The notes under the pieces were generated by a model. The model was not told where the DNA came from and did no database searches. It saw only the letters and a list, made by a program, of their open reading frames with translations. From assembly GCA_017650905.1 (NCBI GenBank), contig JAGCDZ010000011.1, forward strand, positions 1 through 33,757: DNA of 33,757 nucleotides. Direction: 5' to 3'. A program made the translations under genes and the position numbers. Numbering within the stretch: position 1 is the stretch's first letter; the number at the start of each line of letters is the position of its first letter. Origin of the DNA: Prevotella sp. (GTDB lineage: Bacteria > Bacteroidota > Bacteroidia > Bacteroidales > Bacteroidaceae). This document shows, in pieces, positions 5,156 to 33,173 of the stretch.

Positions 5156-5425
5156 TTATGGTACTGGGTCGTAGCCAGAGCCACCCCAGGGGTTGCATCT
5201 CAGAATGCGCCAGATGGCCAACCAGAGTCCTTTAATGGGACCATATTTTTTCAGTGCCTGCTTGGCATATTCGCTACACGTGGGAGTAAATCGGCACGTA
5301 GCAGGGGTAAAGGGCGAGATGCAGGTCTGATAGAAGACAATGGGCAGGCACAGGATGAAGGTCACACAGATCTTGCAGATCTCGCAGATCTTCTTAATAA
5401 TCACTTTTATCTTCTCACCACTCAC
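5156..5425 (-). CDS. yidD: Membrane protein insertion efficiency factor YidD
   Basis: An 89-residue protein carrying the YidD signature: [20 protein letters not shown] then SEYA, and later [24 protein letters not shown] in its last part. YidD is a small membrane-associated protein that aids YidC-dependent insertion; the rnpA-yidD order is conserved widely. The proposed start is GTG at 5425, inside a heptamer-repeat tract that also contains the rnpA stop, so the exact start is uncertain. Residues 11-20 include a repeated I-C-x pattern encoded by a 9-bp repeat that also occurs in two skp genes of this window. Confidence 0.93.
5364..5393 (-). repeat. 9-bp tandem repeat (ATCTGCNNN type) inside yidD
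   Basis: On the minus strand three copies of ATCTGY plus three variable bases run in frame and encode I-C-x three times. The same unit in the same frame occurs at 21075-21104 and 21652-21678. Confidence 0.6.
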
Positions 5426-5442
5426 TTCTTACCTCTCACCTC
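5402..5442 (-). repeat. Heptamer array at the rnpA/yidD junction
   Basis: Minus-strand units such as GAGGTGA, GAGGTAA, GAAGTGA and GTGGTGA follow one another at a 7-bp period. The rnpA stop and the proposed yidD GTG start both lie inside. A 20-bp piece (5424-5443) recurs perfectly at 29044-29063. Confidence 0.7.
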
Positions 5443-5839
5443 TAAACTGTCTTTCAGCCACTTTTCCCAAAAGTCTTTTCACGCTTTTCTCCACCGTTGC
5501 ACTCTCATGGAGCTCATCAGCCAGCCAAATGAATGCAATGGCGAGTGTCTGCTCTTGCTGTACCTTCTCCGTTAGTATCTGTTTGTGGTGGCGGTAAGCC
5601 TCGCGCACCTGGCGCTTGACTCTGTTGCGGTCCACTGCATGTTTGAAGTGCCGTTTTGATACGCTAACCAAAACCTGTACGGGTATATTGTCTGCCATTC
5701 GTGCTGTCTCCATGACCACAATCCGCAAGGGAAAGACAGAAACGGAAAAACTGCTGCCTTTACTGAAGAGCTGTTCTATCAGTTTTCTGCTGACGATGCG
5801 CTCTCGCTTGTTGAAGGTCGGAGACGCGATGCCCGCCAT
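5429..5839 (-). CDS. rnpA: Ribonuclease P protein component
   Basis: A 136-residue basic protein. The conserved RNR motif (RNRVKR, 71-76) and the opening FNKRERIVSRKLIEQLFSKG are diagnostic for RnpA, which assists the RNase P RNA in maturing tRNA 5' ends. Its stop falls in a heptamer repeat and is 3 bp from the proposed yidD start, so the pair is likely coupled. A 21-bp A/T-rich gap separates it from hemD upstream. Confidence 0.95.
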   Translation of the reverse strand: MAGIASPTFNKRERIVSRKLIEQLFSKGSSFSVSVFPLRIVVMETARMADNIPVQVLVSVSKRHFKHAVDRNRVKRQVREAYRHHKQILTEKVQQEQTLAIAFIWLADELHESATVEKSVKRLLGKVAERQFRGER

Positions 5840-7643: not shown

Positions 7644-8903
7644 TTATGACAGTCCGAAGGCTTTGCGTATGTCCTCCACGCGGTCGAGTTTCTCCCAGGT
7701 AAACAGTTCCACATCGATGGTCTTCGTCTCATGATAGTGACTGGTGAAAGTCTTTTTGATTACTTCCGACTTGCGGCCCATGTGACCATAGGCTGCTGTC
7801 TCGACATACATTGGCTGACGTAATTTCAAGGTACGTTCAATAGCCTTCGGACGCAAATCAAAAAGTTGCTCAATCTTTTTGGCTATTTCACTGTCAGAAA
7901 TTCCCACCTTGTTGCGACCATAAGTGTTCACGTAGATATTCATAGGCTTGGCCACTCCAATGGCGTAACTCACTTGTACCAGCATCTCGTCACTGACGCC
8001 TGCAGCAACCATGTTCTTTGCAATGTGACGGGCTGCATAGGCGGCACTACGGTCCACCTTCGATGAATCCTTGCCTGAAAAGGCACCACCTCCATGGGCA
8101 CCCTTACCACCATAGGTGTCAACGATAATTTTACGACCAGTGAGACCTGTGTCTCCGTGGGGACCACCAATGACGAATTTGCCAGTGGGGTTTACATAGT
8201 ACTTGATGTCGGCACCGAAAAGGTCGAGCACCTTCTGAGAGTGTATCTGTTGTTTTACTCGTGGGATGAGAATGTTAATCACGTCATCCTTAATCTTTGC
8301 GAGCATTATCTCATCCTCGTCAAATTCATCGTGCTGGGTGCTCACAACAATGGTGTCGATGCGTTCAGGGATACCATCGTCGCTGTATTGCACCGTAACC
8401 TGACTCTTGGCGTCAGGACGGAGATAGGTCATCACCTTTCCTTCCTTGCGGATATCAGCCAATGTGCGCATAATCAAGTGAGCCAGATCCAAGCTAACGG
8501 GCATGTAACTCTCTGTTTCGTTGGTGGCATAGCCGAACATCATACCCTGATCGCCAGCGCCCTGCTCGTCTTCGTTTCCATTATCCACACCTCTATTGAT
8601 ATCTGCGCTTTGTTCGTGAATGGCACTCAGGATACCGCATGAATTACCATCAAACTGATACTCGGCCTTGGTATAGCCGATGCGCTTAATGGTATTGCGG
8701 GCGATGGTCTGTAGATCGATGTATACCTCGCTGTGCACCTCGCCCATGATGACGACTTGTCCTGTTGTCACAAACGACTCGATGGCACAACGTGCCTTGT
8801 CGTCATAAGCCAGAAACTGGTCTAATATGGCGTCACTTATCTGGTCGGCCACTTTATCGGGATGTCCCTCTGATACTGATTCTGATGAAAATAAGTATGA
8901 CAT
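7644..8903 (-). CDS. metK: S-adenosylmethionine synthase
   Basis: A 419-residue enzyme that makes S-adenosylmethionine from methionine and ATP in the cytoplasm. Motifs: GHPDK at 13-17, GAGDQG at 115-120, and the [15 protein letters not shown] loop typical of MetK. The start at 8903 ([17 protein letters not shown]) is preferred over an upstream in-frame ATG at 8924, because the family begins this way and the longer start lies over the promoter (8922-8929). It is longer than the E. coli enzyme (384) but shows no disruption. It heads the tight run through DUF4271 and hemD. Confidence 0.97.
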
Positions 8904-8921: not shown

Positions 8922-8929
8922 CAAAGGTA
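8922..8929 (-). promoter_or_regulatory. Predicted promoter (-7 box) for metK
   Basis: Minus-strand TACCTTTG followed by CACCC, 18 bp upstream of the metK start, so the leader is very short. No TTTG -33 box; a five-unit heptamer array occupies that position instead. Confidence 0.65.
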
Positions 8930-8932
8930 CAA

Positions 8933-8967
8933 AAAAGAAGTGAAAAGCGAAAAGTGAAAAGTGAAAA
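8933..8967 (-). repeat. Five-heptamer array upstream of the metK -7 box
   Basis: Five contiguous 7-bp units, consensus TTTTCAC on the minus strand, end 3 bp (TTG) before TACCTTTG. The same unit and geometry occur on the plus strand at 30651-30685. Confidence 0.85.
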
Positions 8968-8996: not shown

Positions 8997-9893
8997 TTAT
9001 TTCTTTATGTTTCTCGGATGGTGTTCAAGAATTTCTCTTCTGAGTGTCGAGGTGTCGATATGTGTGTAAATCTCCGTTGTACCAATGCTTTCATGGCCTA
9101 ATAATGCCTGTATGATGCGTAGGTCTGCACCTCCCTCTAATAATGCTGTGGCAAAAGAGTGTCGCAGGGTATGTGGCGAGATGGTCTTCTTGATGCCTGC
9201 GGTTTCTGCCTGTCGCTTAATCATGATGAGTATCATCGTACGCGTCAGATGACTGCCATAACGATTCAGAAAGACATAGTCTTCTTCACCTGGTTTGATG
9301 CGCATCAGGTTTCGATCGTCGAACCAGTATCCCAGTTCTCTGATAGCCCGTTGTGAAATGGGAACAAGCCGTTCTTTGCTGCCTTTGCCCAAGACACGAA
9401 CGTATTCTTCTTCGAGATAAAGACTTGAGAGCTTCAGATTTACCAGTTCGCTCACTCGCAGTCCGCAAGAGAATAGCACCTCGATGATGGCACGGTTTCT
9501 GTGTCCTTCCCATTTTGAGAGGTCGATGCTGGCTTCCAGGGTATCGACTTCTTCAGGCGACAATACCTCCGGCAAATGCTTTCCTATCTGTGGTGACTCT
9601 AATAATTCTGTGGGGTCATCATCCCGATAACCGTCCAATTGCATATAGCGGAAGAAGCTTCTCACACCACTCAGGATGCGACACTGGCTTCTGGCATTGA
9701 TTCCGATATCGTGCAAGCCAGCAGAAAAATGTTCCAGATCCTCAAGTGTTACTTCGCGAACATCCTTCTGCTCGCCTTTCAAATAGTCAAGCAGTTTACG
9801 CAAGTCGTGCTGATAGGCGTCGAGGGTGTTGCCCGACATGCCCCGTTGTAGTTTCAGATAGCGTATGTAGCCCTTGACAATATCTTTCTCCAT
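8997..9893 (-). CDS. xerD: Site-specific tyrosine recombinase XerD
   Basis: A 298-residue phage-type integrase of housekeeping size. The N-terminal SAM-like core-binding domain covers about 1-90 and the catalytic domain about 105-298. Catalytic residues are visible: R146 (GLRVSEL), K173 (GKGSKER), H241 and R244 (HTLRHSF), H267 (LLGH) and nucleophile Y276 (TEIYTH). XerD with XerC resolves chromosome dimers at dif near the terminus. The lack of adjacent mobile-element genes favours the housekeeping role. It starts 8 bp after the Na/Pi transporter gene. Confidence 0.92.
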   Translation of the reverse strand: MEKDIVKGYIRYLKLQRGMSGNTLDAYQHDLRKLLDYLKGEQKDVREVTLEDLEHFSAGLHDIGINARSQCRILSGVRSFFRYMQLDGYRDDDPTELLESPQIGKHLPEVLSPEEVDTLEASIDLSKWEGHRNRAIIEVLFSCGLRVSELVNLKLSSLYLEEEYVRVLGKGSKERLVPISQRAIRELGYWFDDRNLMRIKPGEEDYVFLNRYGSHLTRTMILIMIKRQAETAGIKKTISPHTLRHSFATALLEGGADLRIIQALLGHESIGTTEIYTHIDTSTLRREILEHHPRNIKK

Positions 9894-13509: not shown

Positions 13510-13544
13510 ATTCTTAATTCTTAACGCTTAATTCTCAATTTATT
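13510..13544 (+). repeat. Five-heptamer array upstream of the pckA -7 box
   Basis: Five contiguous 7-bp units, consensus ATTCTTA and degrading toward the 3' end, stop 2 bp before TAATTTTG. Confidence 0.75.
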
Positions 13545-13546
13545 AG

Positions 13547-13554
13547 TAATTTTG
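13547..13554 (+). promoter_or_regulatory. Predicted promoter (-7 box) for pckA
   Basis: TAATTTTG followed by CAGCCG, 48 bp upstream of the pckA ATG. The -33 position is occupied by the heptamer array and lacks TTTG. Confidence 0.6.
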
Positions 13555-17441: not shown

Positions 17442-18239
17442 ATGAAAGAGCTTTTGGACATGAACCGCATTCCACAGCACATTGCCATCATCATGGACGG
17501 CAACGGACGCTGGGCGATGGACCGTGGGCTGGATCGTACCTTCGGCCATAAGGCGGGAGTCGACACCGTTAAGAAAATCACAGCAGAGTGCGCCCGACTG
17601 GGGGTGAAGTTCCTGACGCTATATACTTTCTCAACAGAGAACTGGAACCGTCCTGCTTATGAAATTGAGGCACTGATGGGACTGGTGCTCAGTTTTGTAG
17701 AGATGGATCTGTTTACCGACAACAACATCAGGTTCCGGATGATTGGCGACCGCAAGCGACTGCCCGATGGTGTACAGGATAAGATCAAGTACATGGAAGA
17801 CCTGACGAAAGACAATACCCGTATGACCGTTGTCATGGCTATGAGTTATAGCAGCCGTTGGGAAATCACAGAGGCCGTGAGCCAGATTGTGAGCGAGGTC
17901 CGTGACAAGCTTGACCATCCGAACGATATGCTCAGATGGAAGGAGTATCTGACTACAGGCGGTATCTTCCCACAGGACATTACTGAAGAGACCATCAGCC
18001 AGCACCTGTGCACCAACTTCATGCCCGATCCGGAACTGCTGATCCGCACGGGTGGCGAACAGCGCATCTCCAACTACCTGCTGTGGCAGTGCGCTTATTC
18101 TGAGTTCTACTTCTGCGACACCTACTGGCCCGACTTTGACGAAGAGGCCCTTTACAAGGCAATCGTCGATTATCAGAGCCGCCAGCGTCGCTTTGGAAAG
18201 ACCGAAGCTCAGGTGGAAGAGGAGGAGAATAAGAAGTGA
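17442..18239 (+). CDS. uppS: Isoprenyl transferase (undecaprenyl diphosphate synthase)
   Basis: A 265-residue cis-prenyltransferase that makes the C55 lipid carrier for peptidoglycan and surface glycans. Motifs: [12 protein letters not shown] with catalytic D19, the FSTENWNRP segment, and the C-terminal [10 protein letters not shown] and [14 protein letters not shown] blocks. The start at 17442 ([11 protein letters not shown]) could be replaced by the internal ATG at 17460. Its stop codon lies within the first unit of a heptamer array (18236-18263) that leads to bamA. Confidence 0.96.
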
Positions 18240-18263
18240 AAAGTGAGAAGTGAAAAGTGAAAA
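18236..18263 (+). repeat. Four-heptamer array at the uppS/bamA junction
   Basis: Four contiguous units, consensus GTGAAAA. The uppS TGA stop is part of unit one, and an in-frame bamA ATG follows two bases after the last unit. The unit is the reverse complement of the one at the riboswitch promoter. Confidence 0.85.
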
Positions 18264-18265
18264 CG

Positions 18266-29036: not shown

Positions 29037-29041
29037 TTCTC

Positions 29042-29069
29042 TTACTTCTTACCTCTCACCTCTTATTTC
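29042..29069 (-). repeat. Heptamer array at the rbfA/permease junction
   Basis: Minus-strand units at a 7-bp period (AGAAATA, AGAGGTG, AGAGGTA, AGAAGTA). The rbfA TAA stop lies in phase in the first units, and the permease ATG is 6 bases after. Shares a 20-bp identity with 5424-5443. Confidence 0.7.
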
Positions 29070-30564: not shown

Positions 30565-30584
30565 ATTTTTCCTTGATTTGGGTG

Positions 30585-30592
30585 CAAAGATA
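30585..30592 (-). promoter_or_regulatory. Predicted promoter (-7 box) for aroQ
   Basis: Minus-strand TATCTTTG followed by CACCC, 20 bp upstream of the aroQ start. Five heptamers (30596-30630) lie immediately upstream with a 3-bp gap. Confidence 0.65.
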
Positions 30593-30595
30593 CGA

Positions 30596-30630
30596 AAATA
30601 ATTCATAATTCATAATGCTTAATACATAAT
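30596..30630 (-). repeat. Five-heptamer array upstream of the aroQ -7 box
   Basis: Five contiguous 7-bp units, minus-strand consensus ATTATGA, ending 3 bp (TCG) before TATCTTTG. The sequence family is different from the array on the divergent side. Confidence 0.8.
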
Positions 30631-30650
30631 TTATCCAGGCGGTAGCAAAT

Positions 30651-30685
30651 TTTTCACTGTTCACTTTTCACTTTTCACTTTTTTT
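30651..30685 (+). repeat. Five-heptamer array upstream of the riboswitch promoter
   Basis: Five contiguous 7-bp units, consensus TTTTCAC with the last one all T, ending 3 bp (TCG) before TACCTTTG. Layout and unit match the metK array. Confidence 0.85.
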
Positions 30686-30688
30686 TCG

Positions 30689-30696
30689 TACCTTTG
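30689..30696 (+). promoter_or_regulatory. Predicted promoter (-7 box) of the thiamine unit
   Basis: TACCTTTG followed by CAGCCG. Transcription would begin at about 30701-30704, right at the first pairing bases of the TPP aptamer. Confidence 0.7.
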
Positions 30697-30703
30697 CAGC
30701 CGA

Positions 30704-30783
30704 ATTTCAAGGGGTGCCTGCGGTCGCAGGCTGAGATGATACCCTCTAACCTGATCCGGATCATGCCGGCGTAGGGATGGAAT
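30704..30783 (+). ncRNA. TPP riboswitch (THI element)
   Basis: The conserved thiamine pyrophosphate aptamer is clear: GGGGTGCC, then CTGAGATGATACCC (30731-30744), then CTGATCCGGATCATGCCGG and GCGTAGGGA (to 30777). An outer stem pairs ATTTCA with TGGAAT (one G-T pair). It senses TPP and lowers expression of the downstream genes. A candidate switch is CCCCTTT at 30807-30813, which could pair either with AAGGGG in the aptamer (30709-30714) or with AAAGG at 30824-30828. Confidence 0.96.
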
Positions 30784-30823
30784 ACAGGATAATCAATACA
30801 AGCAATCCCCTTTACACTTATTT

Positions 30824-30858: not shown

Positions 30859-33138
30859 ATGAAAAGATTTGTTTTTCAGTTGTTGGCGCTGGTGGGCGTT
30901 GTGAATGTGAATGCACAAAACGATGGTTTGGACTCACTGCTGTCGCTTGAGTTGCAGGATGTGCAGGTGGTGTCGACACGAGCATCGAAAAAGACACCTA
31001 TGGCATATACAAATATGGATAAAGAGGTATTGAGGGCTGTGAATTTCGGTCAGGATGTGCCTTATCTGCTGTCGCTCACGCCGAGCATAACGATGACTTC
31101 GGATGCAGGTAACGGCATCGGCTACACATCACTTCGCGTGCGTGGTACAGACCCTTCTCGCATCAATATTACGGCTAATGGCATTCCGATGAATGATGCC
31201 GAGAGTGCCCAGCTTTATTGGGTGAATATGGGTGACTTTGCCTCGTCTGTACAGTCTATGCAGATACAGCGTGGCGTGGGAACGTCGACCAACGGTGCGG
31301 GTGCCTTCGGTGCTACGCTGAACATGCAGACGGAGAATATCGGTGTGGAGCCCTATCTCGGCCTCGACTTCTCAGGCGGCTCTTATTACTCACATAAGGA
31401 GACGGTGCGCTTCGGCACGGGTCTGCTTAATGGTCATTGGGGCATTCAGGGTAGGTTGTCGAATATCGGGTCGAAGGGTTATCTGGATCGTGCCTCAACA
31501 AAACTCAATAGCTATCTCATCCAGGGTGGCTATTTCTCAGACAATACGGTGGTGAAGCTAATCACCTGGAATGGCGTTGAGGAGACTTATCACGCCTGGA
31601 ACTATACGTCGAAATATGAGCAGAGCCTGTATGGACGTACCTATAACTCCTGCGGTGTGATGGGTTTCGACGACAACGATAATCCTACGGGATATTATGA
31701 CAACCAGACGGATAACTACCATCAGCAAAACTATCAGTTGATACTGAACCAACGCATTAGCCAACTGCTGAACCTAAACGCTGCATTGCACTATACTCGT
31801 GGCGATGGTTACTACGAGCAGTACAAGCGTAAGCGTTATCTGTATAAGTACGGACTCTCAGACAATGGGATAGATCGAGGCAACCTGATCGAACAGAAGA
31901 AGATGGCTAACGACTTCTATGGCGCTGTGGCCTCACTGGTCTATAACGACCGTAAAGGGGTAGAGGCTGCTTTCGGAGGTGGTTGGAACAAATACGATGG
32001 TGACCATTTCGGAAATGTGGTAGGTGTGCCCAACTATGAGTATTACCGTAACAATGCCAAGAAGACGGACTTTAACATCTATGCCAAAGCCAACTATGAA
32101 TTCCTACATGGACTGAGTGCCTTTATAGATTTGCAGTACCGTTGTATCAACTATAAAATGGAAGACCCTGCCGATGAATATGGACATAATTGCGTCCTGC
32201 TGTCTGATGGTACATTAAAGTATGGCATAGGCTACATCATCGATGAAAAGTTTAACTTCTTCAATCCTAAGTTTGGACTGAACTACGACATTACACCGAA
32301 TCATAGGCTTTACGCCTCGTATGCTATAGCGCATAAGGAACCGACACGCAACGATTATGAAGACAATGTCGGAACCGAGATGAAAGCTGAACGCCTGAAC
32401 GATTTCGAAGCAGGCTACAAATTCCAGAGCGAGCATTTCTCTGCAGGTGCCAACTTGTACTGGATGTCATACAAAGATCAATTCGTACTGACGGGTGAAC
32501 TGAACAATATTGGCGAAGCCATAGCCAAGAATGTGGGCAAAAGTTATCGTCTCGGTGTCGAACTGGAGGCTGCCTGGCAACCCGTTGATTGGCTACGCTG
32601 GGATGCTAATGCCACGTGGTCGAGAAACCGTGCCAAGGACTGGACGGTCACCGATAACGATGGCGATACGCACAATCTGGGAGATACTCCGCTGAGTTTC
32701 TCGCCCGACCTGATACTGAATAACATCCTGACCTTCAATTACAAGGGACTGAAGGCCAGCATCCAGAGCCAGTATATCAGCGACCAGTATCTGACAAATA
32801 CCGGTTTTAAGGAGATGGAGTGCCAGGATGCGTGGTCGAATGGCAATACTACTTATGAGGCGCTGCTGCTGAAGAGCCACTTTAACACCAACATCGACCT
32901 TTCATACAATATTGCGCTGAAGCCGTTGGGCATCAAGGATGCCACTATCGGTGTGACATTGTACAACATTTTCTCTGCGAAGTACGACAACAATGGCTGG
33001 GCAGCCCCACAGTTTGTGAAGGATGCTAACGGCGGTGTGAAGGCCGTCAACGAGTGGGGGTTGCGTGATATGGATGCCGCAGGCTTCGCTCCCTCGGCGC
33101 CGTTTAATGTAATGGCGCATTTGTCGGTGAATTTTTAG
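30859..33138 (+). CDS. TonB-dependent outer-membrane receptor (probable thiamine receptor)
   Basis: A 759-residue protein with a signal peptide (MKRFVFQLLALVGVVNVNAQ), a plug domain (about 35-160, with LRVRGTDPSRINITANGIPMN and the QIQRGVGTSTNGAGAFGATLNM stretch) and a 22-strand-type barrel ending in HLSVNF. No carboxypeptidase-like N-terminal extension and no adjacent SusD. TonB receptors import scarce ligands across the outer membrane. The TPP riboswitch just upstream and the PnuC gene just downstream indicate thiamine or a thiamine derivative as the ligand. Confidence 0.92.
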   Translation: MKRFVFQLLALVGVVNVNAQNDGLDSLLSLELQDVQVVSTRASKKTPMAYTNMDKEVLRAVNFGQDVPYLLSLTPSITMTSDAGNGIGYTSLRVRGTDPSRINITANGIPMNDAESAQLYWVNMGDFASSVQSMQIQRGVGTSTNGAGAFGATLNMQTENIGVEPYLGLDFSGGSYYSHKETVRFGTGLLNGHWGIQGRLSNIGSKGYLDRASTKLNSYLIQGGYFSDNTVVKLITWNGVEETYHAWNYTSKYEQSLYGRTYNSCGVMGFDDNDNPTGYYDNQTDNYHQQNYQLILNQRISQLLNLNAALHYTRGDGYYEQYKRKRYLYKYGLSDNGIDRGNLIEQKKMANDFYGAVASLVYNDRKGVEAAFGGGWNKYDGDHFGNVVGVPNYEYYRNNAKKTDFNIYAKANYEFLHGLSAFIDLQYRCINYKMEDPADEYGHNCVLLSDGTLKYGIGYIIDEKFNFFNPKFGLNYDITPNHRLYASYAIAHKEPTRNDYEDNVGTEMKAERLNDFEAGYKFQSEHFSAGANLYWMSYKDQFVLTGELNNIGEAIAKNVGKSYRLGVELEAAWQPVDWLRWDANATWSRNRAKDWTVTDNDGDTHNLGDTPLSFSPDLILNNILTFNYKGLKASIQSQYISDQYLTNTGFKEMECQDAWSNGNTTYEALLLKSHFNTNIDLSYNIALKPLGIKDATIGVTLYNIFSAKYDNNGWAAPQFVKDANGGVKAVNEWGLRDMDAAGFAPSAPFNVMAHLSVNF

Positions 33139-33173
33139 TTTTTAGTTTGTAGTTTATTGTTTACAGTTTACAG
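33137..33173 (+). repeat. Five-heptamer array at the TonB receptor/pnuC junction
   Basis: Five contiguous 7-bp units (consensus AGTTTAN) start at the AG of the receptor TAG stop and are followed by AG and the pnuC ATG. Confidence 0.8.

Follow-up and report, generated by a model that had tools for sequence, protein, structure and literature searches.

The DNA analysed here, hereafter the window, is a stretch of 33,757 nucleotides that represents contig 67 of a 2.90-Mb Prevotella genome (72% complete). Its MetK shares 94% identity with the proteins of Prevotella ruminicola KHT3 and several uncultured Prevotella and Prevotellaceae assemblies, on which basis the organism is treated as a rumen-type Prevotella. 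The identities of its metK, aroQ and pckA genes are confirmed by NCBIfam models (for the metK coding sequence, at 7644..8903 on the minus strand, TIGR01034 with 496 bits), and a TPP riboswitch (30700..30794, plus strand; Rfam RF00059, 71.5 bits) is found 3' of a further promoter. The gene 3' of the riboswitch scores only below the cut-off of a TonB-siderophore receptor model, the label 'TonB receptor' being that of the first-pass annotation.

The putative promoters of metK, aroQ, the riboswitch transcript and pckA each carry a tandem array of 7-bp units that ends directly 5' of a -7 box of the form TAnnTTTG, at the positions that had been given for them, and Tandem Repeats Finder (TRF) reports period 7 at all four. 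At metK, four TTTTCAC-type heptamers, one of them TTTTCGC, occupy 8940..8967 on the minus strand and are joined by the linker TTCTTTTTTG (8930..8939, minus strand) to the box TACCTTTG (8922..8929, minus strand), which is also present in array-free relatives. The aroQ promoter, likewise on the minus strand, has an ATTATGA-type array at 30598..30631 (4.9 copies by TRF) and the box TATCTTTG at 30585..30592. The riboswitch promoter on the plus strand consists of a core, GCGGTAGCAAATT, located by pattern search at 30639..30651, followed by four NTTCAC units (30652..30678) and the box TACCTTTG (30689..30696), and is listed as the core-to-box row G000:C67:30639-30696. These two promoters form a bidirectional stretch (30577..30708), most of which matches other loci in relatives, for example G031:C118 with 88% (query 285-404) and G031:C35 with 85% (query 268-399). 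At pckA, an ATTCTTA-type array of about four units (13510..13540, plus strand; 4.4 copies by TRF) precedes the box TAATTTTG (13547..13554, plus strand).

The earlier count of exactly five heptamers per array was overstated: TRF counts between 4.4 and 4.9 copies, and inspection by eye shows four clear units plus a degenerate fifth, which reads TTCTTTT at metK, where it makes up the first 7 bp of the linker, and TTTTTTT at the riboswitch. When periods from 3 to 15 were examined by a lag test across the window, period 7, together with its double 14, was the sole passing period; the metK, aroQ and riboswitch arrays passed, whereas the less regular pckA array failed. Period-7 arrays are present at 4 of 11 promoters in the window, which is an unusual cluster of array promoters. 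Bacteroides promoters follow a -33/-7 consensus, as set out in the relevant part of PMC7366714. Of the features of this sigma-ABfr type, the -7 box TAnnTTTG is present at all four loci and TTTG near -33 is absent from all of them; as the first-pass annotation stated, the interval 19-21 bp from the -7 box lacks TTTG in every case. Two further arrays of the window, a TTTTCAC-family array at the junction of two plus-strand frames (18232..18264) and one at the end of the receptor ORF (33128..33163), both detected by TRF and the lag test, have no adjoining -7 box, and the array is therefore not promoter-specific. Weaker period-7 arrays were reported by TRF at 5413..5443 and, between two minus-strand ORFs of the ORF list, at 29039..29065.

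In GCGGNNGCAAATT-(NTTCACT)4, a dispersed module of about 41 bp, the TTTTCAC array forms the repeat part. The units usually number four, and the metK linker also conforms to the module, for which linkers of 9-10 bp are usual. The core GCGGYAGCAAATTTTTCAC occurs in 12 copies in the own genome when up to two mismatches are allowed, and in none when the pattern is reversed as a control; nine of the 12 lie 49-50 bp upstream of a TAnnTTTG box. Across the genus, GCGGNNGCAAATTNTTCAC is found in 35 of 100 genomes, the own genome included, with up to 62 copies and again none for the reversed control. A core-to-box search in 10 genomes that allowed a gap of 15-45 gave 53 rows from 7 genomes, and in 48 of these rows, from 6 genomes, the core-to-box length is 57 or 58 nt. 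The five off-length rows comprise one (48) that matches a listed site a second time, two (49 and 50) that match a linker-internal box-like TATTTTTG at sites that also have a box at the usual distance, and two outliers (72 and 42).

Of 97 distinct cores in the fetched DNA, 37 are followed by a box at 49-50 bp, and no box is present within 75 bp of the start of the remaining 60. Exactly four units are present at 31 of the 37 box-linked cores versus 28 of the 60 others, which range from 0 to 6 units; the box-linked class is here set by a distance that itself favours constant length, and the more telling result is that boxes are missing at other distances. The proposed fixity of copy number consequently stands for the TTTTCAC module with its GCGG core and, of the four loci in the window, is clear only at the riboswitch promoter, because by eye the core at metK is degenerate and the arrays of aroQ and pckA are built from different units. 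If a box and its module were copied jointly, their fixed spacing could simply have been inherited.

Might the arrays instead be contingency loci, in which slippage changes the heptamer copy number and thereby tunes expression, as had also been suggested? A precedent is offered by the hmw genes of Haemophilus influenzae, whose promoter 7-bp repeats reportedly vary in copy number by slippage and so tune expression. With the two linker-internal box-like sequences set aside, not one of the 53 core-to-box rows shows a one-unit change in length. At metK, the array has equal length by eye in four species (G000, the genome of the window, and G103, G090 and G031) while its units change, for instance from TTTTCAC in G000 to TCTTCAC in G031, and the arrays comprise merely 4-5 imperfect units. 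The module thus has a fixed geometry beside the -7 box, slippage tuning is therefore not supported, and we regard it as highly improbable.

How common are such arrays at promoters, and where do they lie? Putative promoters were defined as TAnnTTTGC with a reading frame starting nearby, the frames coming from a simple script and not from a gene finder, and 450 of them were collected from six genomes (draft assemblies, one genome per species). Among these, a period-7 array is present in the 45 bp upstream of the box in 43 cases, at -110..-65 in 16 and in the 45 bp downstream in 2. The first sample of own promoters, part of which came from stretches chosen for TTTTCAC, contained upstream period-7 arrays at 16 of 172, whereas 50 base shuffles gave 0.2 on average and never more than 2; at the same promoters, periods 4-6 and 9-12 gave 0 or 1 and period 8 gave 5. 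This excess of 7-bp periodicity over shuffled sequence dwindles in the unbiased part of the own genome, where period 7 is found at only 2 of 115 promoters (one with the doubtful box TAGGTTTG) and period 8 at 5 of 115. As these unbiased promoters give 2 period-7 arrays upstream versus 1 at -110..-65 and 0 downstream, the positional case rests mostly on relatives and on chosen stretches. Other own promoters with period 7 amount to 6 of 32 in stretches chosen for TTTTCAC and 3 of 60 in the remainder of those contigs. Of the relatives, G031 has such arrays at 1 of 30 unbiased promoters and at 19 of 67 in other stretches, mostly picked by array or core matches, and G090 at 8 of 56, while G016 (0/36) and G024 (0/18) have none.

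From these positions one might conclude that the arrays define a dedicated promoter class, in which a regulator or the main sigma factor would read tandem heptamers, in four copies and with 7-bp spacing, and in which the arrays would be kept for regulation. Such a class would account for a module with fixed copy number and spacing and a GC-rich core 49-50 bp from the box. It would also account for the observation that several unit families (TCACTTT, TCAATTT, TCACTAT, TCACTGT, TCAATTA and TCAACTG) share a common phase relative to the box, either the same or the next one. Other promoter arrays, of the AAACTAT and AATTATG types and some in A-rich orientation, break this phase, however, and 60 of the 97 distinct cores are without a box. 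No core of G041 (62 cores), G034 (52) or G066 (22) has a box within the distance searched, none of 25 G041 promoters has an array, and orthologous promoters of close species lose or swap theirs. What remains of the alternative promoter class is that differing units recur, without TTTG, in the own genome and some relatives, and at a tight position, the near end of the array being 2-9 bp away from the box in 25 of 29 cases; promoter-specific they are not, as a TAnnTTTG box adjoins 15 of 68 own arrays and 53 of 68 are not beside a box (by a looser rule). A dedicated class therefore appears unlikely to us.

Two kinds of unusual promoter arrangement may be recorded here. Period-8 arrays of the TTTTTTAC type occupy the position of the heptamers at the aroQ/TPP promoter of G031 (L242) and at metK of G131 (L106). 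Single arrays between two facing -7 boxes, in the own genome at C84 ~9253-9290 and C44 ~34900-34950, seem to serve both directions.

Is the TTTG box replaced by the array? In array-free promoters TTTG stands mostly at exactly 20 bp from the -7 box (38/155). At 19-21 bp, only 1 of the 52 promoters with a period-7 or period-8 array has it, versus 110 of 398 others (Fisher p = 4e-6), a test that counts related sequences apart; in the own genome alone the corresponding numbers, 1 of 16 versus 45 of 155, do not differ significantly (p = 0.07), and near-matches with at most one mismatch are about equally common with (8/16) and without an array (88/155). A cleaner comparison follows one gene across species. 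For this an ortholog set was derived from 76 loci, of which 53 included a metK or aroQ start and 39 were used after removal of 2 duplicates and of 12 metK loci that had no usable box in the nearest 75 bp. In this set TTTG is present at none of 9 array promoters versus 19 of 30 array-free promoters (p = 0.001), the own genome and its close relatives falling in the array group. This exclusion is partly built in, because an array without TTTG in its unit cannot contain TTTG, and a substitution of function is not shown thereby. In array-free promoters, a further T-run occupies -16..-14 (T at 60-68%), 7-8 bp from TTTG, and several array units put a T-run on both the TTTG and the -16..-14 positions. 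We suggest that this spacing of T-runs may be the reason why a period of 7 bp fits.

Period 7 predominates among the tandem repeats of the own genome. In 715 kb, a sample that included stretches picked for TTTTCAC, period 7 contributes 49 arrays and period 8 contributes 13, and none of the remaining periods between 2 and 13 exceeds 3; a later count separates picked from unbiased stretches, which lowers the promoter rate. In the unbiased 575 kb, period 7 accounts for 33 arrays and period 8 for 15, with 2-8 at each of the remaining periods between 4 and 12, and a single 230-kb contig has 18 of period 7, with none in a first-order Markov control. Of the 68 own arrays, 31 are inside predicted reading frames, as called by a frame predictor that over-predicts. 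Array-rich relatives include G090, with 39 in 260 kb, and G041, with 22 in 140 kb of stretches picked for the core. In the DNA of 80 metK loci from named genomes, grouped by the titles of their records, 111 kb from Prevotella contain 4 period-7 and also 4 period-8 arrays, and period-7 arrays number 8 in 192 kb from other Bacteroidales and 0 in 241 kb from other Bacteroidota. As a separate observation, matches to (TTTTCAC)2 are found in 35 of 148 genomes across the phylum, and G318, a member of another class, has 226 of them.

Away from promoters, the module partly takes a palindromic form. In the stretches fetched from G041, 10 of 13 cores form inverted pairs about 12-25 bp apart, with their heptamer arms pointing outward. 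Four such pairs are located in open frames of 564, 792, 1099 and 1382 codons and lie in frame: one in a gene with periplasmic-binding/HTH domains (L287 1681-1706), one in an RNB exoribonuclease gene (L288 12750-12772), one in a GH106 gene (L285 15999-16021) and one in a gene for a hybrid two-component sensor (L289 16473-16498). The two of the four pairs that were folded are far more stable than shuffled sequence, with z of -8.1 and -12.0, while the bidirectional aroQ/riboswitch stretch of the window folds more weakly (z -3.3), mainly via its facing boxes. Pairs lying in frame are predicted to give rise to hairpins in the mRNA and to extra loops in the protein. G031 has a single arm in a 732-codon gene with a SpoIIE domain, and the G090 ortholog of this gene has a different heptamer-like array at that site.

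Another account would be neutral growth, whereby polymerase slippage generates heptamers wherever sequence varies freely, also in the DNA upstream of promoters, and the arrays have no role. The diversity of the arrays would fit such growth, the own genome and its relatives together having 61 unit families among 240 arrays in 1.49 Mb (AAAAGTG, i.e., TTTTCAC, being the commonest with 46), as would the large share of own arrays that are not beside a box. Heptamers are, moreover, over-represented in many bacterial genomes, and polymerase slippage is suggested as the cause in the pertinent section of PMC4692102. Yet a 13-bp non-repetitive core accompanies the TTTTCAC array at many loci, and because this core is shared across loci, local slippage is rejected as a sufficient explanation. 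Inverted pairs inside open frames and constant length at boxes likewise speak against it, as does the scarcity of arrays elsewhere in the genus, where 140 kb of G016 contain a single one and 60 kb of G024 contain none. We hold purely neutral growth to be rather unlikely.

Comparison of sister species points to rapid turnover. The aroQ/riboswitch locus retains its pair of facing -7 boxes in G031, G090 and G103. These boxes enclose AATTATG and TTTTCAC arrays in the own genome and an inverted pair of octamers in G031; between them, G090 has a short heptamer stretch that falls below the threshold, and G103 lacks an array. The metK -7 box is present with or without an array, which implies that the array either joined an existing box or was lost from one.

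Do these sequences move? Like a MITE, the module has many dispersed copies without coding capacity, 12 in the own genome and up to 62 in relatives. As to inverted ends, inverted pairs exist and other copies are single; the inner spacer between paired cores differs by eye from copy to copy, so that a single transposable unit is not defined. Three ortholog comparisons, of the RNB-domain exoribonuclease (L288), the SpoIIE-domain protein (L284) and a small protein (L274), revealed no target-site duplication, clean boundary or clean empty site; the sites hold other variable sequence. Matches to PF01797 (RAYT) are present in 8 of 8 core-rich relatives, in 4 of 9 core-free relatives and not in the own, incomplete genome. 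A RAYT transposase as the mover is unsupported: 20 of 26 PF01797 matches were inspected, with one match per fetched stretch and with the longest frame shown, which is not always the matching one, and none lies convincingly beside a core. Cores occur in three of these 20 stretches, in two at distances of 2.6 and 2.8 kb and in the third at 223 bp from a match that is below the cut-off and has an internal stop.

REP and BIME elements, which are associated with RAYT transposases, consist of a GC-rich core that is repeated many times, often as inverted pairs. The Prevotella module resembles them in its GC-rich core, many copies and inverted pairs, and differs in that no RAYT-like gene was found beside its cores; tandem arms are, to our knowledge, not a feature of REPs. 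Nor do we know of tandem heptamer arms or a promoter role in Rickettsia palindromic elements. These latter are palindromes inserted in frame in protein-coding genes (PMC10969869), and the palindromes found here likewise lie in frame within genes. The Rickettsia elements measure about 150 bp, and the Prevotella palindromes are not their sequence relatives. The same source, where it treats the Correia elements of Neisseria, describes a dispersed repeat near genes that supplies promoter sequence; these are classical MITEs which carry the promoter with them, whereas the metK -7 box exists in array-free species as well.

Closer in taxonomy is the BrickBuilt MITE of Porphyromonas gingivalis, which has an internal tandem repeat and whose bidirectional promoter activity was tested in E. 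coli (PMC4596501, in its description of the element). It is similarly a Bacteroidales element with an internal tandem repeat and multiple intergenic copies, and its inverted ends, such as GAGACCTTTGCA and TGCAAAGGTCTC, resemble the -7 boxes that bound the Prevotella arrays. It differs in its 23-nt unit, in its leader and tail segments and in being, within that description, always intergenic (PMC4596501); the Prevotella module, which measures about 41 bp, is built of 7-bp units and a GCGG core, and some of its copies lie within reading frames. Heptamer repeats as such are familiar from elsewhere, TAACTGA direct repeats being described in Beggiatoaceae, Cyanobacteria and five Bacteroidetes (PMC4679880, in part) and GGGAATC heptamers in Xanthomonas, with a related unit in Nostoc (PMC4692102, in part). 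As portrayed there, these are abundant, short and mainly intergenic arrays with no known mover, similar to ours, but with one unit per genome studied and mostly either near start codons or capable of forming G-quadruplexes (PMC4679880, PMC4692102), whereas the Prevotella arrays use many units and include a set upstream of -7 boxes. Among openly licensed papers on heptamer or tandem repeats in Bacteroidetes and Prevotella, we recognised none that describes the module.

How might a dispersed repeat come to form half of a promoter? Judging from sequence, we give about an even chance to the reading that the arrays represent a clade-specific, fast-turnover family of MITE- or REP-like heptamer repeats in Prevotella, parts of which have been co-opted as upstream DNA of promoters. 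The module exists as single copies, with a -7 box 49-50 bp downstream of them in some genomes, and also as inverted pairs that form long predicted hairpins, some of them inside open reading frames. In the simplest scenario these elements would move, or be copied, as units. Gene junctions and permissive loops of proteins would tolerate them, and 5' of -7 boxes they would be kept when their spacing permits transcription. A repeat that ends just 5' of a -7 box makes up the upstream half of a promoter in which the TTTG box is absent, and may function as such. Its T-runs, recurring every 7 bp, cover the -33 region as well as the T-rich spacer position that ordinary promoters of this organism share, and RNA polymerase, provided that the boxes are active, might use the repeat in place of TTTG. 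Selection for spacing would then be the probable reason why box-adjoining copies of the module keep one length while others vary. A bolder version, which we consider possible but doubtful, is that of a mobile, heptamer-armed palindromic family that both inserts in frame into genes and repeatedly replaces the upstream halves of promoters already in place at an exact distance from the -7 box, as if with a ruler of its own, with the polymerase reading the 7-bp periodic, T-rich array for TTTG.

If the repeats are indeed a co-opted dispersed family, such elements would be reshaping promoters of housekeeping genes (metK, aroQ and pckA) and of a riboswitch transcript in abundant gut and rumen bacteria, to the extent that close species differ in the repeat that they carry. 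A corollary is that the puzzling over-representation of heptamers in bacterial genomes would become tied to a defined module with a conserved core. The loci would also offer a natural comparison of promoters that have TTTG with others that lack it, through which one can ask what the sigma factor of Bacteroidetes needs upstream of the -7 box.

Finally, two observations concern unit families other than TTTTCAC. Arrays of the CTCTTAC/AAGAGGT type lie near gene 5' ends at C99 184469-184502 and 186529-186559 (L010), where by eye they correspond to the hydrophobic part of a signal peptide. A head, AATCATCTATAAACTATAAACT, recurs at C99 57286 (L003) and in G103 at C62 29078-30674 (L196), which suggests that other unit families may also have a lead sequence of their own.
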